Source of the DNA: Candidatus Eremiobacterota bacterium
Lineage (GTDB): Bacteria > Vulcanimicrobiota > Vulcanimicrobiia > Vulcanimicrobiales > Vulcanimicrobiaceae
Direction of reading: 5' to 3'
Length of the DNA: 64,000 nt
Assembly: GCA_019240525.1 (NCBI GenBank)
Contig: JAFAYE010000001.1
Coordinates: 1,957,300-2,021,299, forward strand
Shown piece after piece: positions 13,794 to 44,675 of the stretch. How positions within the stretch are numbered: position 1 is the stretch's first letter; each line of letters starts with the position of its first letter. Position numbers and translations under genes: made by a program. The notes under the pieces were generated by a model, which was not told the DNA's origin, ran no database searches, and saw only the letters and a list, made by a program, of their open reading frames with translations.

Positions 13794-15152
13794 CTATTCG
13801 TCGTCGACCGGTACGCCCGAAGGCGGCCGCCGGAGAAAGAACGATCGCGAATAGGTCGCGGGTATTTTTTCGAACCGGCGCGGCCGGTGACCGAAACGAA
13901 AGATGTTGGCGATGCTGGTCGTCGTCGCATCGGTCGTTCCGAGCCGCCCGAGCTGCCAGGTGTCTTCGATAAAGCGTACGATGCTGCCGAACTCGTAGAC
14001 GGTATGTGATATCTCGTTTTTCGGGACGTAGGGCGAAATGACGATCATTGGGACGCGAAATCCCGGGCCGCCCTGGTCGTCGAGTTTCGGCGGTTTTACA
14101 GGATCGTAAAAGCCTCCCCAATCGTCCCAGGTCACCACGATCGCCGTCGAATTCCAATAGCGGCTGTCGCCGATCGCATTGACGATGTCGGCGACCCACG
14201 ACGGTCCCGTATCGGAACCATAACCCGGATGATCGGAGTCCATGCCGTCGGGGATCACCCACGACATCGCCGGCAATGCGTCGTTCGCAACGTCGGTGAA
14301 AAAGTTCGTCGGCGGCGTGGAAACGTGAGCGTTCCATTCGTCTTTGTTCTTGAAGATCGCCGACACGGCCAAGAATGCACTCCATTGTGCGCCGGCACTA
14401 TTGCGCCAGCTCGGCGTGTAATACTTCCAGGAAACCTTCTTAGAGTCGAGCAGATCGGCGAGCGTCGTATAGCTGAAGCACGGGTACGGCCCTTTGTCGC
14501 GCTCGTAGACCAGCCCATTGCTAATGACCGACGTCGCGGTGCCGGGCGGCGCGTTGCAGCCCCATGGAAAATGCGTTGGAATGTCGATGATGCTGCGCTT
14601 GGGACCGATCCTCGTGTCGCCGCGAATCAGATCCTGGTGTGCGGTGAAGCTTTCGCTGCCCTGGGTTTGAAACAACTTGTCGGCGATGGCGTATTGCGAT
14701 GCCAGCGTCCAATAGGGTTGAATCTGCTGCGGATCGACGTATTGATAGGGGGCCGAACCCTCGGTTTTGCCGGTGCCGCGCTCGATCAAATTGAACGCAT
14801 CCATGTTACCGTCGCGATAGGCGGTCTTGTATGCGGGGTAGGTGTGATTGAGCGAGTCGCTGCTCAGCAAGCTGACGCGCTTGAGCGAGATCGGTTCGGT
14901 TTTTGCTTTCGAGCCGGTCCCCGTCCGCATTTTTCCCGTCGTCGTTCCGGTCACGCCGGGGAACGTCGCGAAGAAGTCGTTAAAGCTGCGATTCTCTTGA
15001 ATCACCAGCACGATGTGGGTGATTGGAGTAGCGGCGGAATGCGCGGCGAATGGCGACGAACTCTCGGGCAGCGCGGTGACGGCATGACCGCCGCAGCCGG
15101 TAACGCCCAGACTCGCGGCTAACGCGAGCGTTGGCGCCGGGCGCGCAAGCAT
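13794..15152 (-). CDS. AcpA/phospholipase C-like phosphoesterase lipoprotein (second subfamily)
   Basis: The protein has 452 residues with an ATG start. Signal peptide MLARPAPTLALAASLGVTGC (Cys20). It belongs to a second subfamily with those at 15159 and 19113. ENRSFNDFFATFPG, SFTAHQDLIRGDT and YEFGSIVRFIEDTWQLGRLGTTD replace the corresponding plus-strand motifs. The DSDH, WDDWGGFYDPV and GFRVPMIVISPY blocks are kept, so the catalytic core is complete. It is the last gene of a minus-strand operon (20459 to 13794) also holding a type III polyketide synthase and a sulfotransferase. It follows the gene at 15159 by six bases. The substrate may be related to the product of that pathway, but this is speculative. 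Confidence 0.85.
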   Translation of the reverse strand: MLARPAPTLALAASLGVTGCGGHAVTALPESSSPFAAHSAATPITHIVLVIQENRSFNDFFATFPGVTGTTTGKMRTGTGSKAKTEPISLKRVSLLSSDSLNHTYPAYKTAYRDGNMDAFNLIERGTGKTEGSAPYQYVDPQQIQPYWTLASQYAIADKLFQTQGSESFTAHQDLIRGDTRIGPKRSIIDIPTHFPWGCNAPPGTATSVISNGLVYERDKGPYPCFSYTTLADLLDSKKVSWKYYTPSWRNSAGAQWSAFLAVSAIFKNKDEWNAHVSTPPTNFFTDVANDALPAMSWVIPDGMDSDHPGYGSDTGPSWVADIVNAIGDSRYWNSTAIVVTWDDWGGFYDPVKPPKLDDQGGPGFRVPMIVISPYVPKNEISHTVYEFGSIVRFIEDTWQLGRLGTTDATTTSIANIFRFGHRPRRFEKIPATYSRSFFLRRPPSGVPVDDE

Positions 15153-15158
15153 CAGGCC

Positions 15159-16601
15159 TTACTCGGTATCGACGGGCAGCCCGGACGGCTTTTGATGAAG
15201 GAAAAACGCCTTCTTGTAACTCGACGGAATCGTCGCGAACGGCCGCGGCGATTGATTGAGATCGAACATATCGTTCATGCTGTTGGTCGTGCTGTCGGTC
15301 GTGCCGAGCCGCCCTAAGTTGAACGTGTCTTCGATGAACGCGATGATGCTGCCGAACTCGTACACGGTGTGGGAGACGTAACCACCTTGACTGCCGTTTC
15401 CGATCTTAACGTAGGGCGAGACGACCAACATCGGAACGCGAAAACCGGGGCCGCCTTGATTGTCGAGCGGCAACGGCGGCGGCACCGGATCGTAAAAGCC
15501 GCCCCAGTCGTCCCAGACGACGATGACCGCCGTGGAGTTCCAATACTGGCTTTGCCCGATCGCATTCACGACTTGGGCGATCCAAGACGGACCCGTATCG
15601 GGAGCTTTGCCCGGATGATCGGAGTTAGCCGCGTCCGGAATTACCCACGACATCGCGGGAAGCGTGCCGGCGCTGATATCATTGAAGATCGTCGTTTCGG
15701 GCCAAACGACCTTGGTGCCCCACTCGGGGCCGTAGCGTACCGGCGCGATGACGTCGAACGCGTCCCACAACGCGGGCAACGTTCCGTCGACGAGCTGCGG
15801 CGTATAGTACTTCCACGAAACACTCTTCGCGTCGAGGAGGTCGCGCAGGGTCCGATAGCTGCTCGAGCCGTAGTCGGGGAACTGGTTCGAGCACGGAAAT
15901 GGGCCGGTGCCTCGGCTCAAGACCAGATACGTGTTGATCGTTGACGTCGCCGTTCCAGGTTTGGAATCGCAGCCCCACGCTGCCTGCGAGGTCGGGTCGT
16001 CGATCAAACTCTCGGTGTTGGCCGACGGCGGGTTGCAGACAACCGTAATGCAGGTACCGCCGCGAATGAGATCCTGGTGGGCGGTAAAGCTCGCGCTCCC
16101 CTGCGTTTGAAACATCTCGTCGGCGAGCCCCCATTGCGATGCAATCGTCCAATACGGCTGTACTTGCGACGGATTGACGTAGACGTAGGGAGCGCTGCCT
16201 TCGGGCCGGTTATTCGCCGTCTGAATGATCATGTTGAAGCCATCCATCTTCCCGCCGTTGTACGCGGTGAGATAACTGGTGTAGAGATGGTTCAGATCGC
16301 GCGGATCCTGGAGGTTGATTTCCTTGAGTTTGATGGCTTTCTTGCGGTATTGCATGCCGCGCTTGACGAGTTCGTAACCCGTCGTCGCGCTCGTGGCGTT
16401 GGGAAAGCCGGCGAAGAGATTATTGAAGCTGCGGTTCTCCTGAATCATCAGCACGACGTGTTGGATGGGCGTGCTCCCCGAACCACTTCGATGATGCACC
16501 GACGGGGTCGCGGGCGAGGACGAACCGGCACCGCCGCCGCTGCACGCCGCGAGCAGGAGCGTTGCGGCCGCCGCAAAGGCGGACCACCGCCCCGCGCTCA
16601 C
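15159..16601 (-). CDS. AcpA/phospholipase C-like phosphoesterase lipoprotein (second subfamily)
   Basis: The open frame extends to 17207, but that part lies antiparallel-free within the sulfotransferase gene in another frame and is not signal-like. The start is the GTG at 16601, overlapping the sulfotransferase stop (GTGA). This gives a 480-residue protein with signal ...TLLLAAC (Cys20). Motifs: HVVLMIQENRSFNNLFAGFPN, SASFTAHQDLIRG, DAANSDHPG, and VWDDWGGFYDPV. A region of about 30 residues between the nucleophile block and GCDSKPGTATS contains two extra cysteines (GTCITVVCNPPS), absent from its neighbours. The start/stop overlap implies translational coupling to the sulfotransferase. Confidence 0.86.
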   Translation of the reverse strand: MSAGRWSAFAAAATLLLAACSGGGAGSSSPATPSVHHRSGSGSTPIQHVVLMIQENRSFNNLFAGFPNATSATTGYELVKRGMQYRKKAIKLKEINLQDPRDLNHLYTSYLTAYNGGKMDGFNMIIQTANNRPEGSAPYVYVNPSQVQPYWTIASQWGLADEMFQTQGSASFTAHQDLIRGGTCITVVCNPPSANTESLIDDPTSQAAWGCDSKPGTATSTINTYLVLSRGTGPFPCSNQFPDYGSSSYRTLRDLLDAKSVSWKYYTPQLVDGTLPALWDAFDVIAPVRYGPEWGTKVVWPETTIFNDISAGTLPAMSWVIPDAANSDHPGKAPDTGPSWIAQVVNAIGQSQYWNSTAVIVVWDDWGGFYDPVPPPLPLDNQGGPGFRVPMLVVSPYVKIGNGSQGGYVSHTVYEFGSIIAFIEDTFNLGRLGTTDSTTNSMNDMFDLNQSPRPFATIPSSYKKAFFLHQKPSGLPVDTE

Positions 16602-17761
16602 GACACCTTCGCCCCGACGCGCTGCGCGATGGCCGCGACGTCGTAATCGAAGCGCCGAGCCACGTTGCTGGTGACCGCAACGATCTCGTCGAGCGTGGGC
16701 GCATCGAACGCCGGCTTGTAATAGTCGGGAAACGAAAGCTTCTCGTCGTATTTCTCGCGGCTCGCCTCGAAGCTGGGCGCATCGAGCTCGGTGTGCGCGA
16801 TGATGCGGTCGATGGTCCGCAGTGAATCGCTGCAAAGGTCTTCGTAGCGCACGATGCAGACGCTGCGCCGCAGCTCGGGATCGGCGTCGAGTTGGTCGGC
16901 GACGAAACCATAGACGTACGCCCAGTACCGCGCGCGCGACTGCGCCCAGCGCCCCTCGTCGAAGAGGCGGCGGATCTCGCGCAACTCTTCGGGCCGGCCG
17001 ACGTTGGCCATCACTTGCTTTGGTCCGAACTCGTGGTGCCCCGTGAGTTCGATGATCTCGATCTGTCGCGGATCGTCGCGCTCGATCTCGGCCCAAATGC
17101 GATCTTGCTTGATCAGCGAGGCGACGTGGTCGACCGGATTGCGAACGTAGAGCAGAAAACGGGCGTCGGGGAAGAGCTTGCGCAGATATTGCATGCGCAC
17201 GACGCACATAATCGCCTTGCTCACATAGCGGCTTCGGCCGCGCACGAGCGCCAGCTTGCGAAGATGCTCGCTGTAGAAGCGCTCGAAGGTTGGATTCGAC
17301 GTCGTGCCGTCGAGGACGCTGTAGTCTGACTCATCGTGAATCTGCGGGAAGAAATGCTCCCACAAGATCTCTTCACCCATCTCGGCGCTGTCGCGGGTCA
17401 CTTCGATGCGGTCGCGATGGATGCGGGGAACCGGTTTACGCATTGCATCGACCGGTATGCGCGGAAAGACTTTGTTCCAGACGTAGGGCATGTACGGCAT
17501 CAAAAAATCAGCGTACTTATGCGTTCCCACGTCGGGATGCTCGCTGAGCATCTGCAACGTGATCGTCGTGCCCGCGCGCGGAAGCCCGCAAATGTAGACG
17601 GGCCGGTCGACGCGCTGCCGCGCCAGGCTTCGGGCGAGCATGAGTGACTCGAAGTTGCCGAGTCCGACAAAGAGCGGAGCGGCCGCATGAACGCCCCGAA
17701 CGCTCCAATAGAAGGGACCAGGCACGGAGAATTTCTGCGGTGTCTTAGTGTCGGTAGCCAT
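16598..17761 (-). CDS. Sulfotransferase (PAPS-dependent, Sulfotransfer_3-like)
   Basis: The protein has 387 residues with an ATG start, six bases after the polyketide synthase gene. The 5'-phosphosulfate loop is visible as VYICGLPRAGTT (residues 55-66), and the 3'-phosphate site as YVRNPVDHVASL (205-215). Family knowledge: these enzymes move a sulfo group from PAPS to a hydroxyl or amine acceptor. Genes next to type III polyketide synthases often tailor the polyketide, so the acceptor may be its phenolic or pyrone product; this is inference. There is no signal peptide, so it should act in the cytoplasm or on the inner membrane face. Its stop overlaps the start of the phosphoesterase at 16601. 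Confidence 0.85.
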   Translation of the reverse strand: MATDTKTPQKFSVPGPFYWSVRGVHAAAPLFVGLGNFESLMLARSLARQRVDRPVYICGLPRAGTTITLQMLSEHPDVGTHKYADFLMPYMPYVWNKVFPRIPVDAMRKPVPRIHRDRIEVTRDSAEMGEEILWEHFFPQIHDESDYSVLDGTTSNPTFERFYSEHLRKLALVRGRSRYVSKAIMCVVRMQYLRKLFPDARFLLYVRNPVDHVASLIKQDRIWAEIERDDPRQIEIIELTGHHEFGPKQVMANVGRPEELREIRRLFDEGRWAQSRARYWAYVYGFVADQLDADPELRRSVCIVRYEDLCSDSLRTIDRIIAHTELDAPSFEASREKYDEKLSFPDYYKPAFDAPTLDEIVAVTSNVARRFDYDVAAIAQRVGAKVS

Positions 17762-17767
17762 CGCGGA

Positions 17768-19018
17768 CTATACTTTCTCGAAGAGCGCGCCGATTACCGT
17801 TAAGCCGGGGCCGAAGGCCATGCTCAAGACTTTGGTGCCTGTTGGGATATCGGGAGAGTCCACGACCAACTGCCAGATATGCGGCGCCGTCGCGGAAGCC
17901 ATGTTGCCGTGCTCGTAGAGAACCCGCCGGCTCAGGGCGACCGCCGATTCCTCGATGCCGAGTTTGCCGCGGATCTGATTGAGAATCGCCGGGCCGCCGG
18001 GATGGATGGCAAAGGTCATCGACGATTTCTCGCGTTCGAAGTCGAGGCCGACCTGCGCGCAGATTGTTTCGACGAACGCGCCGATCGAATCGCGAATCAT
18101 GAAGGGTACGCGCTTGGAGAGCGACATGTCGAACTGCAGCGGACCGGGGCGCAAGGTCATCTCGGGTAGCGAATCGGGAAGAATGAATTCGTCGATCGCC
18201 AAAACCTTCAGTCCGCCGCGGCGACCGCTCTTCTGGAACTCACTCTGCGGATAGGCCGCGTACTTGATGAAGCCGTCGGCAAAAAGCGTGGACGTGACGA
18301 AATTGTCGGGTTCGTCGCCAAGCAAATCGAAGTGCAAGGAGAGAAACTCGGTGTGCACGACATCCACGCGCTGCTTGGGTTTGGGAAGCGAAACGAACGA
18401 CGATCCCACCAGTCCGACCGCGGTTCGGATCGCCGGAAACGCGCCATAGCATCCCATGTGGTAGGAATGGGTGACGCCGACACCGAGCCAGCCGCGACGC
18501 GAAAGGAAGGTCTGCACCGGACTGGGCGAGACGTATCCCGAGCAGCTGACGTGCACGATGTCGTTGGGGGGCTCGAGTTGCCCGTCGCGATAGGCGCGCT
18601 CGAAAACGTTGCAGGCAACTTCTTCGAATAAGTTCATGCGCTCGTCGAGCGTCTCGCCGGTGGGACTGCGCAGATTGCCGTGACGGCGAACCAAATCCGA
18701 AGGATGCTCCGGATCGTCGGTGACAAAGCGCGAGGTCAGCACGCTCACTTGACGCCGCGCGATGTATTCCGACGACGTGCCGTATCGCGCCATCCGTGCT
18801 TGCAGCATGCGCTCGACTTCCGCGCGTTCGGCGGCATCGTCGAGCTTGCGCGCGGCGCATTGCGCCAAGGTCATGAAGTGCGCCTGGATCGGCTTGAGCT
18901 CGTCCTGAGGAACGGACGGCGTGACTTCGATGCGTTCGAAATCGGATAAGACGACCGGTACCGTGCCGAACGGGGGCTTGGGGTCGATTTTGCCGAGCGA
19001 TCGTTCTAAAGTGCGCAT
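17768..19018 (-). CDS. Type III polyketide synthase (chalcone/stilbene synthase superfamily)
   Basis: The protein has 416 residues from the ATG at 19018; an in-frame TTG at 19033 would add five residues, and neither start has a clear ribosome site. The thiolase-fold triad is visible: Cys190 in YHMGCYGAFPA, His339 in FAIHPGGPAI and Asn372 in EHGNMASAT. HVSCSGYVSPSP and LFADGFIKY are further family blocks. Type III enzymes extend acyl-CoA starters with malonyl-CoA to alkylresorcinols, alkylpyrones or similar; the product cannot be told from sequence alone. The operon order (phosphoesterase, this gene, sulfotransferase, two phosphoesterases) suggests a sulfated lipid or phenolic product. Confidence 0.88.
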   Translation of the reverse strand: MRTLERSLGKIDPKPPFGTVPVVLSDFERIEVTPSVPQDELKPIQAHFMTLAQCAARKLDDAAERAEVERMLQARMARYGTSSEYIARRQVSVLTSRFVTDDPEHPSDLVRRHGNLRSPTGETLDERMNLFEEVACNVFERAYRDGQLEPPNDIVHVSCSGYVSPSPVQTFLSRRGWLGVGVTHSYHMGCYGAFPAIRTAVGLVGSSFVSLPKPKQRVDVVHTEFLSLHFDLLGDEPDNFVTSTLFADGFIKYAAYPQSEFQKSGRRGGLKVLAIDEFILPDSLPEMTLRPGPLQFDMSLSKRVPFMIRDSIGAFVETICAQVGLDFEREKSSMTFAIHPGGPAILNQIRGKLGIEESAVALSRRVLYEHGNMASATAPHIWQLVVDSPDIPTGTKVLSMAFGPGLTVIGALFEKV

Positions 19019-19112
19019 AGGAAACCGTTGCAAACGTTCGCCGTCTGCGCCTTTCTTCCATTTGCTGCGCTACCCGCGCTATCGTTGATAATCGTCACTA
19101 ATCCTGGTTATC

Positions 19113-20459
19113 TTATTCGGTGTCCACCGGCTGGTTCGAGGGTGGACGCCGCAGCAAATATGATTTCGAATACTCACTTCCGATCCGCACGAATGCTCGC
19201 GGCGTTTGCGAGAAGTCGAAAAAATCGTTCGCAAAGTCAGACGACGTGACGTCGGTCGTTCCCAACCGTCCCAAGTTCCAGTTGTCTTCGAGGAATCGAA
19301 CGATGCTTCCGAACTCATATTGATAATGCGATACGTACCCGGCTTTGGCATACGGCGAAACTGCAATGAACGGAACGCGAAATCCCAAGCCGCCGTAACG
19401 ACGATTTCCCGGTGGTGCGACGTGATCGTACCATCCGCCCCAATCGTCCCATACGATCAAGATTGCCGTCGTCTTCCAAGCATCGCTCGCGCCGATCGCA
19501 TCGACGACTTGCGCCACCCACGACGGGCCCGTGTCGGAGCTTTGGCCGGGATGGTCGGAGTTGTGAAAATCGGGAATGACCCATGCGACCGACGGAAGCG
19601 TGCCGCGGCTGATATCGGTGAAGACGTCGGTCTCGGGCGATACGACGTTCGACCAGTCGGCGCCCAAGCGCACGGCATGGATCGCAGCAAATGCGTTCCA
19701 AAGATTGCCGCCGATCGTTCCCGCCGCCGGCGTATAGTAGCGCCACGACACGGCGGACTTGTCGAGCAGGTCGGCGAGCGTTTCGTACGACATGCACGGG
19801 AACGGGCCGGTGAAAACGCTGTATTTATTGCTTACCGAAATCAGCGAAGTCCGCGTTGCGGGCGGTGCGTTGCAACCCCAGGGCTCAGCCGTCGGAAAGT
19901 CGATGAGGCTTTCGCCGCTTCCGATCTCGGTGCCACCGCGAATCAAGTCCTGATGCGCGGTAAAACTGCCGCTGCCTTGCGTCTGGAATGTATGATCGGC
20001 CAAGACGTATTGCTTGGCGAGATCCCAATACGGTGCGATCTGCGTGGGATCGACGTAGCGATAGACGTACGTTCCCGACATCCGCCCGATCGGAACAGTA
20101 TCGAAGCCGTTCATCTTCCCGCCGTTCCAGTCTCGCCGCCAAAAGTTGTAGCCGTTGTTCGGAGAGATCGGACTCGCCAGCGTGCTCTCTTTTAACCGGA
20201 TCGATCCGCCGTTGTGGGTCTTGCCACGGGTGGCTCCGTCGGCGCCCGGAAACGTCGCGAAGAGATTGTCGAACGTTCGGTTTTCCTGAACGAGGATCAC
20301 GACGTGGGTGAAGTACTTGCCTTTCGCCGCGGGCGGCGGAGGCGCCAAGTACGGCGACCCGGCGGAGCCGCCTCCGCCGCAACCAGCGAGCAATGCGAAT
20401 GTGGCAGTGAAAAGGAGCGCGAGCACCACGACGCGCCGCGCGGGATCGGGGACGGGCAT
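19113..20459 (-). CDS. AcpA/phospholipase C-like phosphoesterase lipoprotein (second subfamily)
   Basis: The protein has 448 residues with an ATG start. The signal peptide ends FALLAGC (Cys27). Motifs: HVVILVQENRTFDNLFATFPG, SGSFTAHQDLIRGGT, FHNSDHPG, VWDDWGGWYDHVAPP and YEFGSIVRFLEDNWNLGRLGTTD. It is the first gene of the minus-strand operon running through the polyketide synthase. Its start codon shares two bases with the start of the divergent sua5 gene (CATG at 20457-20460). Its promoter therefore lies inside sua5 coding sequence. The 94 bases between its stop and the polyketide synthase start hold no clear hairpin, so readthrough is plausible. Confidence 0.86.
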   Translation of the reverse strand: MPVPDPARRVVVLALLFTATFALLAGCGGGGSAGSPYLAPPPPAAKGKYFTHVVILVQENRTFDNLFATFPGADGATRGKTHNGGSIRLKESTLASPISPNNGYNFWRRDWNGGKMNGFDTVPIGRMSGTYVYRYVDPTQIAPYWDLAKQYVLADHTFQTQGSGSFTAHQDLIRGGTEIGSGESLIDFPTAEPWGCNAPPATRTSLISVSNKYSVFTGPFPCMSYETLADLLDKSAVSWRYYTPAAGTIGGNLWNAFAAIHAVRLGADWSNVVSPETDVFTDISRGTLPSVAWVIPDFHNSDHPGQSSDTGPSWVAQVVDAIGASDAWKTTAILIVWDDWGGWYDHVAPPGNRRYGGLGFRVPFIAVSPYAKAGYVSHYQYEFGSIVRFLEDNWNLGRLGTTDVTSSDFANDFFDFSQTPRAFVRIGSEYSKSYLLRRPPSNQPVDTE

Positions 20460-23417: not shown

Positions 23418-23420
23418 TAA

Positions 23421-23612
23421 GCAATGCTTCGACAGGCTCAGCATGACAGCACTGATGTCACCCTGAGCTTGTCGAAGGGTCGTCAGCAGCGATGCTTCGA
23501 CAGGCTCAGCACGACAGCGCTCGACAGGCTCAGCATGACAGTGCTGATGTCACCCTGAGCTTGTCGAAGGGTCGTCAGCAGCAATGCTTCGACAGGCTCA
23601 GCATGACAGTGC
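23421..23612. repeat. Cluster of six palindromic repeats after tRNA-Val
   Basis: Six copies of a 23-25-base element occur in alternating orientation (TGCTTCGACAGGCTCAG..TGACAG and TGTCACCCTGAGCTTGTCGAAGGG). The first pair (23426-23449 and 23455-23479) can fold into a long hairpin with a five-base loop. A unit of roughly 93 bases (pair plus GTCGTCAGCAG spacer) is repeated twice. This resembles REP/BIME clusters. Position suggests a role in ending or processing the tRNA transcript, but that is inference. Confidence 0.88.
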
Positions 23613-23645
23613 TTCGAGAGCCGCAGCATAGCGAGGGAGGAGATT

Positions 23646-26657: not shown

Positions 26658-27742
26658 TGGCTCGGGTGTTGCTCTCCGGCTACTACGGTTTTGGGAACTT
26701 CGGAGACGAGGCGCTCTTGGAAGTAATCGTCGCGAACATTCGCCGCCGTTTTCCGTCTTCACAGCTCGAGGTACTCTCGGCAACGCCTAAAGCAACCGCG
26801 GCGGCCCACCGGGTCGAAGCGGCTCCGCGATGGGATTGGCGCGCGATTCGCGCCGCGATCGCACGTGCCGACGTCGTGCTCTCCGGCGGCGGGGGCCTGC
26901 TCCAGAACGCGACGAGTCTGCGCAGCCTCCTTTACTACGCCGGAATTCTACGCGAAGCGATTCGCGCGCACCGCAAGACGATGATCTTTGCCCAATCGAT
27001 CGGACCGCTCGACTTTTGGGGTCGTCTCGTCGTGCATTACTTTTGCGCCGGTACGAATCGCGCGACGGTGCGCGATTCGCGCTCGCGTTTGCTCCTGGCG
27101 AAGCTTCTTTCAAACACCCCGGTCGAGCAGACCGCCGATCCGGTCTTTTTGTATGAAGCGCCGCACGACGTCGATCTGCGCAACGACGGCCTTGGTCCGG
27201 AGAGCGGACCCTACGCCGCCATCAGCGTTCGCCCATCGCCTGCATTGCGCGACGCGCCCGCGGTGATCGGACGCGCGGTCGACCGGCTCGCCGATCGCCA
27301 TGGCATTCGTTCGGCCTTCGTGGCATTGGGAGGCGCCTCCGACGCGGCGGCGGCGACCGACGTGATCCGAGCCTGCAAATCGAGCCCGGTGCTCTTGCCC
27401 GAATGCACCCCGGCCAAGGCGGCGTCGATTCTACGCGGGGCGCGGGTCGTAGTCGGAATGCGCTTACATGCGCTCATTCTCGCCGCGCGTTATGCCGTTC
27501 CATTTCTCGCCATCGCCTACGATCCAAAGGTTTCCGCACTCTGCGACGACTTGCGCTATCCGCTGCCGCGGCTTTGGAGCGTGGGCGAACGCCGGCCGCT
27601 CGACGACGCAATCGATGCTCTGGTCGACCGGCTCGTGGACGAGCGCGAAACGCTGCGCTCGCATCTGTCCGAGTGCCGCGAACGCATCGTCGCCGCGGCC
27701 GAACGCAACTTCGACGTGCTCGGCGAGTTGATTGACGCATGA
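26657..27742 (+). CDS. csaB: Polysaccharide pyruvyl transferase CsaB
   Basis: The protein has 361 residues. It transfers pyruvate from phosphoenolpyruvate to secondary cell-wall polysaccharide, making the ketal that SLH-domain proteins bind. Motifs: LLSGYYGFGNFGDEALL at the N-terminus, VVLSGGGGLLQNATSLRSLLYY, FAQSIGPL, then a GT-B-like second half with VVGMRLHALILAARY and PFLAIAYDPKV. Cytoplasmic, no signal peptide. It lies in an operon between DUF5693 and ileS, overlapping both by 1-4 bases. No SLH-domain protein is seen in this window. Confidence 0.9.
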   Translation: MARVLLSGYYGFGNFGDEALLEVIVANIRRRFPSSQLEVLSATPKATAAAHRVEAAPRWDWRAIRAAIARADVVLSGGGGLLQNATSLRSLLYYAGILREAIRAHRKTMIFAQSIGPLDFWGRLVVHYFCAGTNRATVRDSRSRLLLAKLLSNTPVEQTADPVFLYEAPHDVDLRNDGLGPESGPYAAISVRPSPALRDAPAVIGRAVDRLADRHGIRSAFVALGGASDAAAATDVIRACKSSPVLLPECTPAKAASILRGARVVVGMRLHALILAARYAVPFLAIAYDPKVSALCDDLRYPLPRLWSVGERRPLDDAIDALVDRLVDERETLRSHLSECRERIVAAAERNFDVLGELIDA

Positions 27743-30687
27743 ACGATTCGCCAAAAGATTATCGCGCGACACTGAACTTGCCAAAGACGAGCTTTCCAAT
27801 GAAGGCCGAACTGCCGGCGCGCGAGCCGGCACGCCTGGATTGGTGGCGCGAGCATCGAACCTACGAGCGGCGATTGGAACGCAACGCGGGCAACGGCGCT
27901 TGGATTCTCCATGACGGGCCGCCCTACGCCAACGGCGACCTTCACATGGGACATTTCCTCAACATGGTGCTCAAAGACGTCTTCATCAAGATTGCTTTGC
28001 TTGACGGCAAGTACGCCAAATTCGTTCCGGGTTGGGACATGCACGGGCTGCCGATCGAATACGAGACGCTCAAGTATCTGGGCATCAAGGATTTTCACGC
28101 GATCGATCCGCTCGAACTGCGCGAACGCTGCGCGGAGCGCGCGCTCTTTTGGCTCGACCGGCAGCGCTCTCAACGCGAGCGCATGGGCAACTTCGGCTAT
28201 TTCGACCGCCCCTACCGCACCATCGATCCCTCGTTCGAAGCCACCATCGTCAATGCGCTCGCCGACTTGGCAGAAAAACAGCAGATCTACAAGGGCCTGC
28301 GCTCGACGCTTTGGTGCATTCACGATGAAACCGCGCTCGCCGAAGCCGAAATCGAATACGAGCCGCGTGTCTCACCCTCGATTTACGTTCGCTTCCCGGC
28401 ATCGGAAGAACAGGCCAAACGGATTTACGACGTCATGCTTCGACAGGCTCAGCATGACACTGACCAGGCTCAGAATGACAGTGACGCGGCTGCGCATGAC
28501 ACGCCCGATGTCACCCTGAGCTTGTCGAAGGGTGAACAGGCTCAGCATGACACGCCCGATGTCACCCTGAGCCTGTCGAAGGGTGACCCGGCTGGGCACG
28601 ACACAGAGCAGCCGGCGAAGGTCGCTTTTCTCATTTGGACGACGACGCCGTGGACGTTGCCCGCGAACGCGGCGATCGCTTTGCGCCCGGATGCGAGCTA
28701 TGGACTCTACCGCGTCGGTGACGAAGCGGTTATCGTTGCCGAAGCTCTGGCCGAACGCGCGCTCGGCGAACGCTTTGCCGAGGCGCGCCTGCTGGGACGC
28801 GCGCGCGGTGAAGAGCTCGACGATCTCGCCGTGCGCCATCCGTTCGCGGATCGCGACTCGGTGGTCGTGCTAGCCGATTATGTCGATTTGGAAACCGGAA
28901 CCGGGGCGGTTCATACCGCGCCGGGTCACGGCGCCGACGATTTCGATACGGGCCTCAAATACGGATTGGCGATAATCAATCCGGTCGACGCTGCCGGTCG
29001 CTTCACGAAAGAAGCCGGACCCTATGCCGGTATGCAAATTTTCGATGCCAATGCGAAGATAATCGAAGATCTGCGCGCAGCCGGCATGTTGTGGAAAGCG
29101 GCCGAATACGAACATTCCTATCCGCACTGTTGGCGGTGCCACAATCCCGTGATCTTTCGTGCCACCGCGCAATGGTTTCTCGCGATGGACCAAAACCTGT
29201 TGCGACAGCACGCAATTGACGCGACCGACGGCGTCGAGTATACGCCCCAATGGGGGCGCGCTCGCCAGCGGCAAATGATCGAGACGCATCCGGAATGGTG
29301 CCTGTCGCGGCAGCGCACGTGGGGCACGCCGATCCCTTCGCTGCTCTGCGTTCAATGCGGTGAAGCGATCCTGGATGCGCGGGTGGCGCGACTGGCGGCG
29401 AAGCGCTTTGCCGAAGTCGGCGCTAGTGCGTGGTGGAGCGATCCCGTGCAGGTCTATCTGCCGCACGATTTTTCGTGTCCAACGTGCCGCGGCACGCAGT
29501 TCGAAAAAGAGAAGAACATCGTCGACATTTGGTTCGAGTCGGGCGTAACGCATTTGGCGGTACTCGGGCGCGACGGGATGCCGTGGCCGGCCGATTTGGT
29601 GCTCGAAGGCGGCGATCAATTTCGCGGCTGGTTTCGCAGCTCGCTGATCACCGGCGCCGCCATCAAAGGCCGCGCCCCATATCGCCGCGTCATGAAGAAC
29701 GGATGGGTGAACGACGAGCAGGGGCGCCCCATGTCGAAGTCGCGGGGCACGGGCATCGAAGCGCTCGAGGCCATGTCGAAGTGGGGCGCCGACGTGCTGC
29801 GTTTGTGGGCCGCGTCTGTCGAGCCGATCGACGACGTTCGTTTCGGCCCCAACGTCGTCGATCAGGTGGGCCGCGTCTACCGCAATCTTCGCAATCGCAT
29901 GCGCTTCATGATCTCGAACATCGAGGATCTTCCGTCCGGCGCGGTCGTTGCGCGCGAGGCGATGGAACCAATCGATCGGCTCGCCTGCAGCGTGGCCGAC
30001 GCATTCGTCGCCGGGGTCAAAGCCGCGTACGACCGTTGCGAAATCCACGAAGCGTATCTGCGCATCGTCGAGTTCGAAAGTAGCGTTTCAAGCCTCTATT
30101 TCGACGCGCTCAAAGATCCGCTCTATTCGCGCGGGCTCGACGACCCTCGCCGGCGCAGCGCGCAATCCGCGCTGCTTTACGTGCTACGCCGCTTTCTCAC
30201 CGCGCTCGCGCCGGTGCTGTCGTTCACCGCCGAAGAAGCGTGGCAAGCCGTTCCCCCCTCGCTGCGTGGCGACGCGGCGAGTATCTTCGATACGTCCTTC
30301 GACGTTGCGCGCCACCGCTCGTTCGACAACGACGTACGGCTCTGGCAACAGCTGCGCGACTTGCGTGCGCGCGTCGCGGCCGTGAGCGAGCCACGCGATT
30401 TTGAAGCGACGATTCTGCTCGAGGTCACGCCGGCGGCCTATCGCCGCCTTGACGCGCTCGGCGATAATTTGCGCGAAGCGCTCGTCGTATCGGAGCTTCG
30501 TCTGGTTGAGAGCGAACGAAGCGACGGCAAAGCGGACGACGGGATCGTGGAGTTCGCGCTGCTGCGCGCGCAGGGCGAAAAGTGCATCCGCTGCTGGAAG
30601 TATCGTCAACTCGGAACCGACCCGGCGAATCCGTCGATTTGCGCCGACTGCGCGCAGGTCGTGCGCTCTTTGCGGGCCGCCGGTTAA
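27739..30687 (+). CDS. ileS: Isoleucyl-tRNA synthetase with repeat-derived insertion
   Basis: The protein has 982 residues, its ATG overlapping the csaB stop. It charges tRNA-Ile. The HIGH motif is HMGH (69-72) after DGPPYANGDL, and the KMSKS-type motif is RPMSKSRGTG near 665. The editing domain begins with IWTTTPWTLPANAAI. A C-terminal zinc site, CIRCWKYRQLG...CADC, is present. Residues about 233-290 are encoded by five palindromic-repeat copies and read as MLRQAQHDTD...VTLSLSKGD. They sit in the variable loop just before the WTTTPWTLP strand, where other IleRS proteins carry about 15-20 unconserved residues. The gene is otherwise intact and presumably essential, since no second ileS is seen. 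Convergent with tgt, stops overlapping. Confidence 0.95.
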   Translation: MNDSPKDYRATLNLPKTSFPMKAELPAREPARLDWWREHRTYERRLERNAGNGAWILHDGPPYANGDLHMGHFLNMVLKDVFIKIALLDGKYAKFVPGWDMHGLPIEYETLKYLGIKDFHAIDPLELRERCAERALFWLDRQRSQRERMGNFGYFDRPYRTIDPSFEATIVNALADLAEKQQIYKGLRSTLWCIHDETALAEAEIEYEPRVSPSIYVRFPASEEQAKRIYDVMLRQAQHDTDQAQNDSDAAAHDTPDVTLSLSKGEQAQHDTPDVTLSLSKGDPAGHDTEQPAKVAFLIWTTTPWTLPANAAIALRPDASYGLYRVGDEAVIVAEALAERALGERFAEARLLGRARGEELDDLAVRHPFADRDSVVVLADYVDLETGTGAVHTAPGHGADDFDTGLKYGLAIINPVDAAGRFTKEAGPYAGMQIFDANAKIIEDLRAAGMLWKAAEYEHSYPHCWRCHNPVIFRATAQWFLAMDQNLLRQHAIDATDGVEYTPQWGRARQRQMIETHPEWCLSRQRTWGTPIPSLLCVQCGEAILDARVARLAAKRFAEVGASAWWSDPVQVYLPHDFSCPTCRGTQFEKEKNIVDIWFESGVTHLAVLGRDGMPWPADLVLEGGDQFRGWFRSSLITGAAIKGRAPYRRVMKNGWVNDEQGRPMSKSRGTGIEALEAMSKWGADVLRLWAASVEPIDDVRFGPNVVDQVGRVYRNLRNRMRFMISNIEDLPSGAVVAREAMEPIDRLACSVADAFVAGVKAAYDRCEIHEAYLRIVEFESSVSSLYFDALKDPLYSRGLDDPRRRSAQSALLYVLRRFLTALAPVLSFTAEEAWQAVPPSLRGDAASIFDTSFDVARHRSFDNDVRLWQQLRDLRARVAAVSEPRDFEATILLEVTPAAYRRLDALGDNLREALVVSELRLVESERSDGKADDGIVEFALLRAQGEKCIRCWKYRQLGTDPANPSICADCAQVVRSLRAAG
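28436..28606. repeat. Five palindromic-repeat copies inside ileS
   Basis: Copies in both orientations (28436-28460, 28464-28481, 28509-28532, 28535-28552, 28560-28584), with a shared ACGCCCGATG spacer before each inverted copy, fill about 170 bases of the ileS coding sequence. All are read without a stop. Some copies are degenerate (CCAGGCTCAGAATGACAG), suggesting age or selection for an open frame. Confidence 0.9.
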
Positions 30688-40052: not shown

Positions 40053-40096
40053 CGCCCGGAAACGGTTCGGCTACGGCGCAGCGCTACCATGCGTTG

Positions 40097-40447
40097 ATGG
40101 ACGGCATTGCTTGGGCGGCAAGCGCAATGGTCGCCGCGCGAACGCGACTCGAAATCGCCACCGAGAACTTGGCGAACGTTTCGACCGACGGATTTCGGCC
40201 GGTCGGCGCGCGTGGCGTCTTGACGGCCCGCGGGGTGACGATCTTTCGGGAGCCTGCGCGCGAACAGGCCGCGCCGCGAGCGGCCGGACGCGCGATTACG
40301 GCGCCGCGCCTTTCCAACGGGGTCGACGCAATCGCCGAAATGATCGACGTCCTCGCTGCCGAGCGTTCCTTCGAAAGCGCACAAAAGGCCGCGACGGCGA
40401 TCGATCTCTCACGTCAAAAGGCCGCCGAAGCGGCGCGAATTCAATAG
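40097..40447 (+). CDS. Minimal flagellar rod/hook-like protein
   Basis: The protein has 116 residues from the ATG at 40097 (a TTG at 40094 adds one residue). The N-terminus MDGIAWAASAMVAARTRLEIATENLANVSTDGF carries the flagellar rod signature (ENLANVSTDGF). The C-terminus AEMIDVLAAERSFESAQKAATAIDLSRQKA matches the C-terminal helix of rod proteins. Only about 50 residues lie between, so it is close to FlgB/FlgC size but with the FlgF/FlgG-like end pattern. Probably a proximal rod component, or a degenerate FlgF. Ten bases separate it from the next gene. Confidence 0.7.
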   Translation: MDGIAWAASAMVAARTRLEIATENLANVSTDGFRPVGARGVLTARGVTIFREPAREQAAPRAAGRAITAPRLSNGVDAIAEMIDVLAAERSFESAQKAATAIDLSRQKAAEAARIQ

Positions 40448-40457: not shown

Positions 40458-41186
40458 ATGGATCGGGCGCTTTTTGCCGCCGCCAGCGGCATGGCCGCGC
40501 AGCAGCGCAATCTCGACACGATCGCGGAGAACCTCGCCAATGCAGGCGTCGTTGGTTTCAAGGGCTCGGCGCAGCGTTTCGCCGAGCTGGTGGCGCCGGG
40601 TCAAGGAGGGTTGGGAACCGCTGCGCTCGGCGCACAAGTCATCTTCGCGCAAGGGAAGCTAGCGCGAAGTGCCGGCCCGTTCGATCTCGCGATCGACGGC
40701 GCCGGCTTCTTCGCTTTGGCCGATGCGCGCGGGCGCCGCTTCTATACGCGCGATGGTGAGTTCGCTCGCTCGGCCGATGGAACGCTTCGCAATCAGCGCG
40801 ACTATCGTTTGCAAGGCGTCAAGATTCCAGCCGATGCGTTGACGGCAACCGTCGCGCCCGACGGCGCGGTCACCGCAACGTTCGCAAAAGGCAGTCGTGT
40901 GGTTGGACATATTCGGCTGACTGAGTTTGCCGTTCCGCAGCAACTTCGGGCGATTGACGGCGCGCTCTTCGAAGCGACCGCGAAATCGGGCAACCCCCGC
41001 CAGATCGTTCCCGGCGGCGACGACGGGCCAAAGCTGCGCTTCGGCATGCTCGAAGAATCGAACGTCACCATCGTCGATGCGATGATGCAAATTCTGACCG
41101 CCCAGCGGGCCTACGAAGCGAACGCGAAAGGCGTACAAGCAGCGGACGAGATGCTGCGGATTGCGAACAACTTGCAACGTGCGTAG
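40458..41186 (+). CDS. flgG: Flagellar distal-rod protein, FlgG/FlgF family
   Basis: The protein has 242 residues with an ATG start behind GGAG. Rod signature AAASGMAAQQRNLDTIAENLANAGVVGFKG is at the N-terminus, the central domain holds DGAGFFALADARGRRFYTRDGEFARSADG, and the C-terminal helix is AQRAYEANAKGVQAADEMLRIANNLQR. It assembles into the flagellar rod outside the membrane. At 242 residues it is nearer FlgF (about 250) than FlgG (about 260), so FlgF is an alternative. Two further partial copies of its 3' end lie downstream (41889 and about 43783). The operon is broken after this gene by minus-strand genes. Confidence 0.85.
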   Translation: MDRALFAAASGMAAQQRNLDTIAENLANAGVVGFKGSAQRFAELVAPGQGGLGTAALGAQVIFAQGKLARSAGPFDLAIDGAGFFALADARGRRFYTRDGEFARSADGTLRNQRDYRLQGVKIPADALTATVAPDGAVTATFAKGSRVVGHIRLTEFAVPQQLRAIDGALFEATAKSGNPRQIVPGGDDGPKLRFGMLEESNVTIVDAMMQILTAQRAYEANAKGVQAADEMLRIANNLQRA

Positions 41187-41213
41187 CAGAGACGAAGCGA
41201 CGAGTCTGGCCCT

Positions 41214-41708
41214 TTACCTAAAGGCTGCGGGCTGCGGACTAGACATCCCGTCGATGATTTGCCAATCCGATCCCACCTTTAGCCACGTGTGCATAACACG
41301 CGTGGTGGAAGGCGTTCCATTCCCGTTCTTATCAACCCACTCAAACGTGATCCAGTAAAACGACGCTGCGAGACTCCCGGTTACCTGGATGTCGGCACGC
41401 TTAAACCCGATGGTCTTAAACCTCAGGCCTTTGCCGGTTTTCGAGGTGATCCAGTCCGTAATGTGATCTTTGCGAACGGGTGCGGTGCTGACCGACGGCC
41501 AGCCAAGGAAGTCTGCGTTCCAGAGACTGCGATACTTGGTCAAATCGTTTGCCTGAACGAAGCTCCAGTACGCGATCTCACGGCTCCAAATGACACCCTT
41601 GGTCGTGGCGGTTGCCGACGGGGTTGCTCCTGGGGTTGCACTCGCTGCCGCACCAGTCAAGACCCCGGTCACGGCGCATAGGACGATGACTTGCCAGTAC
41701 TTAGACAT
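41214..41708 (-). CDS. Secreted NTF2/SnoaL-like protein
   Basis: The protein has 164 residues. A signal peptide (about 1-24, ends GAAASA) precedes a Thr/Ala/Pro-rich linker and an NTF2-like fold. Characteristic parts are FVQANDLTKYRSLWNADFLGWPS and then TWLKVGSDWQIIDGMSSP, the usual last strand of SnoaL/DUF4440 domains. Similar domains bind small hydrophobic ligands or act as isomerases or decoys; no activity can be assigned. It lies in the insertion between flgG and the rest of the flagellar genes, opposite to their transcription. Confidence 0.7.
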   Translation of the reverse strand: MSKYWQVIVLCAVTGVLTGAAASATPGATPSATATTKGVIWSREIAYWSFVQANDLTKYRSLWNADFLGWPSVSTAPVRKDHITDWITSKTGKGLRFKTIGFKRADIQVTGSLAASFYWITFEWVDKNGNGTPSTTRVMHTWLKVGSDWQIIDGMSSPQPAAFR

Positions 41709-41785
41709 ATTGTCTCGATCTGAAGTAAGCGTGATTAGCAGTCTTGGCGCGCTATACCAGCCTCCGCGAAAGTGACGCTATTCGT

Positions 41786-41878
41786 TCATCTAATGATGGC
41801 AGCCTTCACGGCCGTTGCCACGGATCTGATTCTGGTGAGCAGTGCCTCGCTCTTGGTGTCTTTTCGTAGGCTTTTCAT
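41786..41878 (-). CDS. Possible 30-residue cationic peptide
   Basis: The ATG at 41878 has an excellent ribosome site (TTAGGAGTGCAT before ATG). The product is about 30 residues with nine Lys/Arg and an amphipathic pattern (MKSLRKDTKSEALL... ending KAAIIR). It lies 100 bases downstream of the ComP-like sensor gene and upstream of the secreted NTF2-like gene on the same strand. No signal sequence. It could be a leader, a signalling peptide or chance. The strong ribosome site is the main support. Confidence 0.4.
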   Translation of the reverse strand: MKSLRKDTKSEALLTRIRSVATAVKAAIIR

Positions 41879-41888
41879 ATGCACTCCT

Positions 41889-41948
41889 AAGGGCGTCCAG
41901 GCTGCAGATGAGATGCTGCGCATCGCCAACAACTTGCAGCGTGGATGA
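41889..41948 (+). pseudogene. Fragment of a flgG/flgF 3' end
   Basis: Twenty codons read KGVQAADEMLRIANNLQRG then stop, identical in protein to the end of the gene at 40458 except for the last residue. At DNA level about ten codons differ synonymously. It is therefore a piece of a diverged, once-selected homologue and not a recent local copy. There is no start or upstream coding part. Confidence 0.85.
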
Positions 41949-41978
41949 ACGAACTGATGCGCGGTCAAACGCGTCGAG

Positions 41979-43715
41979 TCAAAGCGTAGGGACTGCCTCC
42001 ATAGCCGGGTGACGGGCAGTTAACCAAAGGTACGCCGCTCCGGAACGGTGCGCTAGTGCTGCGAGGGTCTCAACTTCGCCGGGTAAGTAATGCGTGCGAT
42101 CCCGCTTGGGTCCGCAGGCGACGAATCCGACGACCTGCGTGTGCGCCGTCATCGGTAATAGCAGCGAGCCGCGGAGCGGATGTTCCGGTTCGTCGCATTC
42201 AAACGCTTCGTTGAAGCCCCGCAGCCGAAGCACGGCCAGGTCGTCCACGGCAAAGAGCCGCGGCAGGTCGTGCGAGTGCGGGGTGGCCAGGACGAACGAC
42301 GATCCCTCCGCCGCATAGATCGCGACGAAGTCGCTGTCGAGTCGCGTGCGAAGCGCGTCGTACGTTTGCGTGAGAAGGCGCTGCGGGTCGGGGATCAGAT
42401 CGATCTCTTTGGTAAACCGCCGGAGCGCCTGTAAGGCCAACACTTGCGCTCTGAAGATGAGCTGGTTTAGAGCGTGCTCGACCCGCCGGTGCGCACTCGT
42501 CAGCAGAACGCCTAATAACACGGCGAGAGCGAGTTCCCCGACGATCGCGAAGCGCGATTCCTCCAGCCAGTGATGGGCGACCCACTCGACGAGCGCTAGC
42601 AACGCGACGATGGCCGTCGTCAACATTCCGTAAACGAGCGCGCGGCTGACGACTAGCCGTATGTCAAACAGCCGGTGTTTGAGAATGGTGTACGCGAGCG
42701 CCATCGGAGCGAGCGCGAAGAAAATAACCGCAACGTTGTTCCACCAAATCGGCAAGAATATTCCGAGCGTACCCTGGAAAAAGCCGGTGATCAGATTCGG
42801 CACAAACGCTAGCGTCATTGCCGCGACCATCCAGCGCAGCCGATTGCGTTCTTCCGGACCGACGGTGGCATACCGCGCGAGCAAAACGAAGATTGCAACC
42901 GAAAACAAACCGTAGAACGTCACGTTGTTAATAGGGATAAGCACGACGGCTGAGCCGACGTTGCCAATAGCGTACAGCATCCCGACGGCCACATTCAGCG
43001 CTGCAAAAGCCGGGGCTACTCCGAAGAGCACGATCCGCTCGGCTGCGAGGGCCGGTCCCCTAAGCCGTACGTCGGGGAAGCGTAGCGCAAACGAGAACAG
43101 GGCCGCAGCACCCGCCGAGGCGGCGACGGCCTGAACGAGAGACACCGCCAATAGCGCTTGGAACGACAAGTATTCAACGTACAGCGTACCGCTGTCGCAC
43201 ATACTGAAGGCAAATAAATAGAACGCCCATGTGACGGCACTCGGGCGAACGAGCACCAGCGTCGCGGCGACGAGAATAAAGAAGATCAATGCCGAGCAAG
43301 CGAGGAGGTCAGTGATATTGTCGACGAGCGTTCGTGGACGGGGATGCGCGACGACGGTAACCGTTTTTCCGGTCGTGAGGGGCAGCTCCATGGCGCGCCC
43401 GTCTCGGCCGACCGACGCATAGCTCACCATCCATCTGTCCGCAGCCGGCATTCGTTCCAGGGCGATGCGGTCTCCGGTCCGCAACCCGGCCCCAGCGGCG
43501 TCACGGTCAACGTCGGTGACGACACCGGAAGGGTTGGCTGAGAATCCAAACGTCGCCCACGGGTGCCAGGGTAACAACATCTCGACGCCGGCCATCGCGA
43601 CCGGGATCGCCGTCAATGCGATAATAACCGCTGCCCGCAGCAGCGCCCGGGCCTTCATAACACCGGACTTCTCTGTAGGCTGCGTGGCGGCCCGCAGGCG
43701 GCGAGGCTCATTCAT
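41979..43715 (-). CDS. ComP-like membrane sensor with PDZ and GAF domains, no kinase
   Basis: The ATG at 43715 gives 578 residues; an ATG at 43658 is also possible, and the frame is open to 43844. Layout: one membrane helix (about 25-47), an extracytoplasmic PDZ-like segment (GVVTDVDRDAAGAGLRTGDRI, 64-84), then seven or eight helices (about 133-400). The cytoplasmic end is a GAF-like domain (RRFTKEIDLIPDPQRLLTQTYDALR to the C-terminus). PDZ plus multiple helices resembles the input half of the ComP pheromone receptor. The histidine-kinase DHp and ATPase domains are absent, so it would need a partner or act as a ligand sensor only. Confidence 0.75.
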   Translation of the reverse strand: MNEPRRLRAATQPTEKSGVMKARALLRAAVIIALTAIPVAMAGVEMLLPWHPWATFGFSANPSGVVTDVDRDAAGAGLRTGDRIALERMPAADRWMVSYASVGRDGRAMELPLTTGKTVTVVAHPRPRTLVDNITDLLACSALIFFILVAATLVLVRPSAVTWAFYLFAFSMCDSGTLYVEYLSFQALLAVSLVQAVAASAGAAALFSFALRFPDVRLRGPALAAERIVLFGVAPAFAALNVAVGMLYAIGNVGSAVVLIPINNVTFYGLFSVAIFVLLARYATVGPEERNRLRWMVAAMTLAFVPNLITGFFQGTLGIFLPIWWNNVAVIFFALAPMALAYTILKHRLFDIRLVVSRALVYGMLTTAIVALLALVEWVAHHWLEESRFAIVGELALAVLLGVLLTSAHRRVEHALNQLIFRAQVLALQALRRFTKEIDLIPDPQRLLTQTYDALRTRLDSDFVAIYAAEGSSFVLATPHSHDLPRLFAVDDLAVLRLRGFNEAFECDEPEHPLRGSLLLPMTAHTQVVGFVACGPKRDRTHYLPGEVETLAALAHRSGAAYLWLTARHPAMEAVPTL

Positions 43716-43782
43716 TTCGCGGCTGCGAATTGGCAACATCCGCGAGGTAGCATAGCGGCATGAAGCTGCATCTGCGTTTTGT

Positions 43783-43814
43783 TGCGGATCGCCAACAACC
43801 TGCAGCGTGGATAG
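43783..43814 (+). pseudogene. Second fragment of a flgG 3' end at the operon junction
   Basis: About 11 codons (LRIANNLQRG, stop) match the 3' end of flgG and the fragment at 41889. The stop overlaps the GTG start of the next flagellar-operon gene (GTGGATAG). This is therefore probably the original flgG/next-gene junction, left after the body of a flgG-like gene was lost or displaced. Ends are accurate to about two bases. Confidence 0.75.
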
Positions 43815-44001
43815 TCTAACGGCGCGACGAGCCGGCGAATTCATCGAAGCGCTGCTGCTCGCGCCGATTCTGCGTCCGATGATTGCGCAAGGCGGTATGC
43901 TCGGCGATTATGAGCTCGACATGCTCGCACATACGATTGCGCGGCACGACAGCCGCGGCTTTGCCGCACTCATTGCGGCTCGTTTGGAGCAAGCGCCTTG
44001 A
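43807..44001 (+). CDS. Small protein of the flagellar operon, possibly FlgJ-like
   Basis: The protein has 64 residues, with a GTG start overlapping the flgG remnant stop. The sequence ARRAGEFIEALLLAPILRPMI then GDYELDMLAHTIARHDSRGFAALIAARL loosely recalls the rod-binding domain at the start of FlgJ (phi-E-A-phi-phi... and A-x-x-I/L-A), but is shorter. It sits directly before fliA with a four-base overlap. Function by position only: rod assembly or an export helper. Confidence 0.6.
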   Translation: MDSLTARRAGEFIEALLLAPILRPMIAQGGMLGDYELDMLAHTIARHDSRGFAALIAARLEQAP

Positions 44002-44675
44002 TCGATGAAGCCACCCGCGAAGAATGCGTGCGAACGTTACTCCCACTCGTCCGGAGAGCGGCGCGGCGGCTCAAGCGGCTCGTGCCGAACCTCGACCTCG
44101 ACGATCTCGTCGGTGACGGCAGCGTCGGACTCATTCGCGCCGTCGACTCGTTCGATCCGCTCCGCGGACCGCAGCTCGGCGAGTACGCGCGCCGCCTCAT
44201 CGTCGGCGCCATGCTCAACGGAATCCGTCGTATGGATCCCGTCTCCGAGCGCGCGCGGCGCATCGTGCGCGACGGCGAAAACCAGCGATACACGCTTGCA
44301 GCGGCGCGCGGCGCCGTGCCGAGCGCGCGGGAGATGGAGGGCCGGTGCCCCGGCTACAGCCGGGCCATCGCGGCGGCCTATCGCGGACAGCCGCTCTCGC
44401 TTGACGCGCCGCTACCCAGAGGCGAATCGCTTGCGGATGATTGGAACGACGATCCGGCGCGCATCGTCGAAACGCGGCTTGATCGAGCGCGGCTTGCGGA
44501 AATGCTCGCCACGCTCCCGCAGCGACAGCGAACGCTGCTCTCGTTGCACTACTTCGATGAAACCTCGCTGCGCAGCATCAGCAAACGCCTGGCGATTTCC
44601 CCGCAACGAGCTTCGCAGCTTCACACGAGCGCGCTGGAAAAACTAAAACGCCAAGCTCATGCTCCGCCGCCTTGA
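43998..44675 (+). CDS. fliA: Flagellar RNA polymerase sigma factor (sigma-28 type)
   Basis: The protein has 225 residues. The TTG start overlaps the previous stop (TTGA). Region 2 shows LVRRAARRL, LDLDDLVGDGSVGLIRAVDSFDP and YARRLIVGAMLNGIRRMDPVSERARRIV, a pattern typical of FliA/WhiG. Region 4 has RLAEMLATLPQRQRTLLSLHYFDETSLRSISKRLAISPQRASQLHTSALEKLK. It should direct transcription of late flagellar and chemotaxis genes. No FlgM-like anti-sigma gene is recognised nearby. Confidence 0.9.
   Translation: MIDEATREECVRTLLPLVRRAARRLKRLVPNLDLDDLVGDGSVGLIRAVDSFDPLRGPQLGEYARRLIVGAMLNGIRRMDPVSERARRIVRDGENQRYTLAAARGAVPSAREMEGRCPGYSRAIAAAYRGQPLSLDAPLPRGESLADDWNDDPARIVETRLDRARLAEMLATLPQRQRTLLSLHYFDETSLRSISKRLAISPQRASQLHTSALEKLKRQAHAPPP

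Follow-up and report, generated by a model that had tools for sequence, protein, structure and literature searches.

The 3' end of a flgG-like flagellar rod gene is a real, recurrent and site-specific integration hotspot in a family of Candidatus Eremiobacterota. Unrelated genes accumulate there beside flgG, carried by small cassettes that leave the target gene whole. We analyzed the locus in a 64,000-nt stretch of DNA (the window), which is part of a 2.79 Mb contig in a genome of 2.8 Mb and 97% completeness (G000, the window genome), and in relatives named by G numbers, which are Candidatus Eremiobacterota metagenome-assembled genomes (MAGs). Our best reading, which we hold to be reasonably probable, is that these are integrase-less, gene-healing cassettes mobilised in trans by a Ccr-like large serine recombinase (LSR).

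The flgG 3' end is a recurrent integration hotspot

Self-comparison of the window placed three flgG 3' ends (tails 1 to 3; 41127-41186, 41889-41948 and 43782-43814) where a preliminary description of this DNA had put them, with E = 9e-8 for the match of tails 1 and 2 and 5e-5 for the other inter-tail match. Tail 2, which had been said to encode the same protein as tail 1, is 82% identical to it over 55 nt; 18 residues are alike, with nucleotide changes synonymous only, but the last residue is Ala in tail 1 and Gly in tail 2. Tail 3 is 91% identical to tail 2 within a 33-nt match and, as described earlier, overlaps the GTG start (43807) of the next open reading frame (ORF). The gaps between tails do hold the minus-strand cassettes that were said to fill them, but the segment at 41865-41888 is an apparent conserved recombination half-site and not filler. 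The features of the locus are as follows.

40458-41186, plus strand: flgG-like rod gene of the FlgE/F/G family, the integration target (NCBIfam TIGR03506, 2.4e-56)
41127-41186, plus strand: tail 1, the working flgG 3' end, from a Lys codon to the stop; core centre AA at 41127-41128 (alignment of cut and uncut sites)
41187-41864, no strand assigned: cassette 1 (missing from empty-site congeners)
41214-41708, minus strand: cassette 1 gene, DUF4440/NTF2-like (Pfam PF14534, 1e-7)
41865-41888, plus strand: putative P half-site of an LSR-type attachment site, 24 bp, CGTAGGCTTTTCATATGCACTCCT (weight matrix; motif also at the attR site of G014)
41889-41948, plus strand: tail 2 (B' half), a displaced flgG 3' end with synonymous differences
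41949-43768, no strand assigned: cassette 2 (common to the flgG site of G086, another genus)
41979-43658, minus strand: cassette 2 gene, multi-pass membrane protein with a C-terminal GAF-like domain (weak match)
43732-43762, plus strand: outward promoter-like block GGCAAC..TAGCAT..ATG toward the next flagellar gene (a suggestion)
43769-43781, plus strand: probable P half-site remnant, CATCTGCGTTTTG (compare CATCTGCTTTTTATATGCAC at the right end of G001)
43782-43814, plus strand: tail 3, the shortened native flgG 3' end marking the original junction (empty sites show the same overlap with the next ORF's GTG)
43807-44001, plus strand: next flagellar-operon ORF, 64 aa (directly 3' of flgG in empty-site congeners)
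43998-44675, plus strand: fliA/whiG-family sigma factor gene (TIGR02479, 2e-34, below the curated cutoff)

The flgG-like gene also matches the flgG model TIGR02488 at 6.2e-55, yet below that model's cutoff.

The flgG end is empty in nine of the 17 genomes of the genus and interrupted, with varying cargo, in the other eight. At the empty sites (G002, G005, G008, G009, G010, G012, G015, G016 and G017) flgG overlaps or directly adjoins the 64-aa ORF and the fliA/whiG-family sigma gene comes next, at a flgG-to-fliA distance of 184-190 nt; this is the uninterrupted order that the preliminary description had named as support for insertion. Interruptions measure 0.6 to 2.6 kb in G000, G001, G003, G004, G006, G007 and G013, and exceed 10 kb in G014. 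None of the 17 genomes has an interruption between the next ORF and fliA; the hotspot is thus confined to the flgG end.

A search of 99 family genomes with the 19-residue tail, for which tail 3 of the window genome is too short, identified extra flgG tails behind flgG in ten species of five genera (two each in G000, G001, G086 and G097; also in G003, G006, G013, G036, G101 and G102). Cargo families comprise DUF4440, SnoaL, glyoxalases, GNAT, antibiotic-biosynthesis monooxygenase, MarR, RidA, alpha/beta hydrolase, a HigB-like toxin with its helix-turn-helix partner, DUF1905, bactofilin and Uma2, and their genes occur in both orientations. G004 carries a two-cassette array, in which a degraded site (position 6890 of the G004 locus) separates the first two genes from a GNAT gene. 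The site and the tail recur while the cargo changes, and the fragment flanks other cassettes in other species, as expected from the earlier proposal of repeated integration at the flgG 3' end. The opposing case, a layout conserved over large distances together with its fragments, was not seen: cargo differs and many congeners are empty.

Some of these cassettes have close counterparts in other genera. Cassette 2 is found at the flgG site of G086 with 87% nucleotide identity over 655 bp including site and tail, and further sequence of its gene lies on a second G086 contig (84% over 1,331 bp). The similarity stops ~46 bp upstream of the start codon at 43658, an inferred start in a longest ORF that extends to 43844. 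The flgG bodies of the window and G086 are 64% identical, and the contrast with the 84-87% identity of cassette 2 indicates that cassettes move between genera. The phylum holds many paralogues from the family of the cassette 2 gene, among which the G086 copy alone is this close. A GNAT acetyltransferase cassette is likewise common to G004 and G029, of different genera (82% nucleotide identity over 552 bp, versus 66% for flgG); G111, a congener of G029, has an empty site. The cassette 1 gene had no match at 1e-12 in the 148 other phylum genomes searched.

At the right ends of cassettes in G004, G007, G029 and G096 we noticed, by eye, GGCAAC..TA..ATG blocks resembling that at 43732-43762. Such blocks may supply a promoter or a start to the next flagellar gene after an insertion has parted it from flgG. 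Upstream of flgG, the flgF-like gene (40094-40447) of the preliminary description proved shorter than in several relatives (117 aa, versus 188 aa in G014). Its N- and C-terminal parts are spaced further apart in several relatives than in the window, and the middle of the gene looks deleted in the window genome, G002, G004 and G007.

Half-sites and a serine recombinase at the flgG end

Directly upstream of most extra tails lies a non-flgG sequence, CGTMTGCTTTTYATATGCACNCC, after which flgG sequence begins at the Lys codon. A pattern of this P half, made from G000, G001, G003 and G013 and searched against 149 phylum genomes with up to two mismatches, gave ten hits in eight genomes, and the reversed control gave none among the genomes listed. 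All but one of the ten hits sit directly against flgG tails; the exception, in G096, is ~140 bp upstream of the next flagellar ORF. A weight matrix scored 47.5 at 41865 of the window, a site that the matrix includes, against 5.1 for the next best position in the 64 kb; the G014 site, which the matrix does not include, scored 40.0 against 2.7 for the next best in its locus. In G096, in G129 and to the left of tail 3 in the window, the motif is shorter and runs into a later part of the tail or into the next ORF; we read these cases as deletions or other crossover positions. In view of the palindromic attP of a G014 element described below, an extra tail with its P half looks like an attR-type LSR site (P.B'). 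Coding potential of the P half was also considered, as it is in frame with the tail (RLLFICTPKGV), but its variation, judged by eye, is not biased to third positions; this interpretation was set aside, the P' arm of the G014 element (below) explaining the motif better.

Besides insertion, the preliminary description had offered the loss of a second flgF/flgG body; a tandem pair would then have disappeared except for its tails. The tails are indeed derived from flgG and stand in operon orientation. Upstream of them, however, there is a shared unrelated motif, the apparent recombination half-site, and no continuing flgG sequence; none of the examined relatives has a tandem second copy of the gene at this locus, and the congeners have one gene and an empty site. 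We regard such a loss as scarcely credible.

The same core is the point at which flgG is cut on one G014 contig (AATGCTAAGGGAGT followed by TCACATAAAGAGGC). On a second contig, over 10 kb of foreign DNA comes before the flgG tail, which has the same P half. A gene for a 609-aa recombinase starts 32 bp from this attR. The protein contains Resolvase (PF00239, 2.6e-20) and Recombinase (PF07508, 9.4e-24) domains and a Zn-ribbon (PF13408) below cutoff. In NCBIfam it matches CcrB (1.4e-27) and CcrC (9.7e-16) best, with both scores falling well short of the equivalog cutoffs, and its relatives of solved structure, by sequence, are the TP901-1 integrase and, weakly, SPbeta YokA. When the ends of the element are joined, the resulting attP, GTTGCCTTTTTGTATGCACTCCT-AA-GGGAGTTCACATAAAGAGGCAAC, is an imperfect palindrome whose arms agree at 18 of 23 positions (0 of 20,000 shuffles were as good). 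The palindrome is an independent check, since the P' arm was unused in defining the motif. The element has the hallmarks of an LSR site, namely a recombinase beside the att site, a near-palindromic attP and a short common core in flgG. A tyrosine-recombinase core, our first guess, was dropped after the LSR was found beside the G014 attR.

Larger elements interrupt flgG in other genomes as well. In G129, of another genus, the gene is split by a 21 kb element contained in a single contig (L164-L165, G129:C4:1664500-1688500) and encoding a phage tail gene, with a different serine recombinase beside its left end; here the arms agree at 17 of 23 positions around a core ~10 bp downstream. This prophage-like element truncates FlgG after ...NAKGVQARNA, and its lysogeny may affect motility. 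A 43 kb island splits flgG slightly further upstream in G120 (L161-L163, G120:C4:574500-620500), and no recombinase was recognised in it. Its genes include SIR2/STALD-domain, DUF4062 and other possible defence genes, and its ends resemble short inverted repeats (GTGCC.CGTAAT). The preliminary description had reported no integrase. This holds for the window locus and for the window genome, in which, at its 97% completeness, a search with PF07508 (the Recombinase domain of LSRs) gave no match, but not for relatives, given the LSR at the same site in G014 and the different one beside the split flgG of G129. No homologue of the G014 LSR, of the P half or of the flgG tail was found in viral contigs, and phages have only distant LSRs, with at most 28% identity to that of G014 among the matches listed. 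A search of a literature library with our chosen terms found no paper on flgG as a serine-recombinase site.

The presence of full elements at the site raises the possibility that the arrays are relics: successive LSR elements would have lost the recombinase and most cargo by deletion in place, and the small cassettes would never have been mobile. Certain right ends are visibly deleted. A full element, however, leaves flgG cut, yet flgG is intact in all arrays, and a second tail cannot arise by deletion. In addition, an all-against-all comparison found no LSR remnant in the inserts, and the same small cassettes are found again in other genera. Taken together, this makes an origin as relics improbable.

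A proposed model for cassette movement

In pairwise comparison, 13 extra tails differ on average by 0.056, 0.059 and 0.488 per site at the first, second and third codon positions, and working flgG ends by 0.047, 0.009 and 0.528. Such a third-position bias would be expected if the extra tails had been working flgG ends until recently; replacements are starting to accumulate in a few of them. The exact crossover cannot be proven from the tail sequences, because synonymous sites are near saturation between species (flgG is 64-75% identical at the nucleotide level).

In the model that we favour, autonomous LSR elements would use the flgG 3' end as attB and cut flgG, while the small integrase-less cassettes would use a derived site, P.B', in which the P half of an LSR element is fused to a flgG tail. 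A cassette would then travel as a circle of the form [flgG tail - stop - one to three genes - P half]. Its exchange with the flgG core would leave the gene healed, with the tail brought by the cassette, and the old tail would come to lie downstream, behind the P half. Repeated rounds would build the array flgG-tail1-cassette1-P.tail2-cassette2-(P).tail3-next gene, as in the window. The intact flgG of the array genomes is no more than compatible with a circle that restores its target. We infer that cassettes travel as circles, that a Ccr-like LSR acting in trans performs the exchange and that newcomers enter beside flgG; tail 1 would accordingly be the one that arrived with cassette 1.

Several observations weigh against this model. 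The array genomes, including that of the window, have no LSR of the G014 kind, and neither a circle nor a strain-level pair with and without a cassette was seen among these incomplete MAGs. The G014 element spans two separate contigs whose connection was not assembled, and the CcrB match of its LSR reaches 96.6 bits against a cutoff of 900. At the right end of the arrays in G004, G006 and G007, half-sites are degraded or cannot be recognised. Finally, characterised serine integrases do not, without a directionality factor, recombine attR-type sites with attB or with themselves (PMC3783163), an exchange on which the cassette model depends, and RecA recombination is therefore the main rival.

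RecA recombination between flgG tails, perhaps after natural transformation, would also move cassettes as circles, and the P half would then be part of a ~80 bp repeat derived from former LSR elements. P half and tail together do form direct repeats of ~80 bp, 75-89% identical between cassettes; the array genomes lack an LSR, the tail of a shared cassette is 82% identical between genera so that exchange inside the tail is possible, and known LSRs do not use such site pairs (PMC3783163). On the other hand, insertion is always at one gene end, though flgG offers far longer homology elsewhere, and wherever the P half is intact the flgG codon at its end is the same. Identity between donor and recipient tails is, moreover, just ~80% over 57 bp, which makes them poor RecA substrates. 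We consider this route unlikely, and less so than the relic origin.

Relation to known systems and significance

Cassette chromosomes offer a partial precedent for the flgG cassettes. For SCCmec, one of the staphylococcal cassette chromosomes (SCC), CcrAB acts on an attB in the 3' region of rlmH; in enterococcal cassette chromosomes (ECC) the att sites are direct repeats of ~50 bp, attR and the junction of the circle show dyad symmetry, and several attR sites often occur (PMC6222049). In composite SCC islands, the orfX end recurs in several variants that form direct repeats (PMC7029136). The flgG arrays resemble SCC and ECC, including the composite and pseudo-SCC islands at the rlmH/orfX 3' end, in targeting the 3' end of a conserved gene and keeping that end. 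They also share variant gene-end copies as direct repeats between stacked elements (here the flgG tails that flank and separate cassettes), recombinase-free members, dyad-symmetric att sites and a Ccr-like serine recombinase as best profile match. They differ in that the target is the flgG 3' end and not rlmH (orfX), and the phylum is Eremiobacterota; the carried tail is 57 bp versus ~18 bp in SCC repeats; the cassettes are ~0.4-2 kb, mostly of one to three genes and none with ccr; and the sole related LSR, that of G014, is far below the Ccr cutoffs and belongs to an element that does not heal flgG. We would call the window arrays SCC-like in operation, but not an SCC, because they lack both the rlmH site and ccr genes.

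With LSR prophages and islands of the TP901-1, phiC31 and SPbeta type, the flgG elements share a near-palindromic attP, a short core and a recombinase at the element end (G014, G129), as well as the phage tail gene of G129; the window cassettes differ by having no recombinase or attL-type site and an intact target gene. Tyrosine-integrase islands rebuild the 3' end of their target, a tRNA or protein gene. Here, too, a replacement 3' end is carried and the displaced end marks the far side, but the half-site is tied to a serine recombinase, and several units are stacked without an integrase of their own.

Integron arrays are similar in their stacked small cassettes with one recombination site each, their variable but similar cargo and a platform at one end. 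In contrast to them, no IntI or attC was recognised here, although no dedicated search for either was run; the sites are double-strand and flgG-derived, the nearest recombinase is of the serine type and genes lie in either orientation. An integron-like serine-recombinase system, with the flgG 3' end as platform, P.flgG-tail hybrids as cassette sites, an LSR in trans that would excise cassettes from such sites and insert them there, and each tail kept by selection as the end of a flagellar protein, is a possibility that we entertain with some doubt.

Repeats and paralogue arrays were also observed elsewhere in the window. A REP-like (repetitive extragenic palindromic) repeat, CTTCGACAGGCTCAGCATGACA / TGTCACCCTGAGCTTGTCGAAGG, lies in frame inside ileS (27739-30687) at 28435-28610, where it adds a protein segment such as MLRQAQHDTDQAQNDSDAAAHDTPDVTLSLSKGEQAQHDTPDVTLSLSKG; the same repeat occurs in tandem at 23420-23629, just after tRNA-Val, and related-looking repeats are found 3' of flgG in G097, G098 and G102. 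The region 496-20459 holds tandem paralogue arrays with ~65-74% DNA identity that encode, as judged by eye, several large secreted phosphoesterase-like and several S53-peptidase-like proteins.

Compared with composite and pseudo-SCC islands, which the arrays resemble in principle, the target gene, the phylum and the scale are new and the recombinase is different. For a mostly uncultured soil phylum, the duplicated flgG tail is a simple marker of a hotspot where genes are acquired. Our results suggest that composite-SCC-like stacking is not confined to Firmicutes and that cassettes can use the end of a protein gene again and again as a site that heals itself. Should an LSR indeed move P.B' cassettes, the rule that attR-type sites are inert would be questioned, and a tool for serial integration would be offered. 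Full elements cut the flagellar rod gene whereas cassettes spare it, and the site may thus affect motility.

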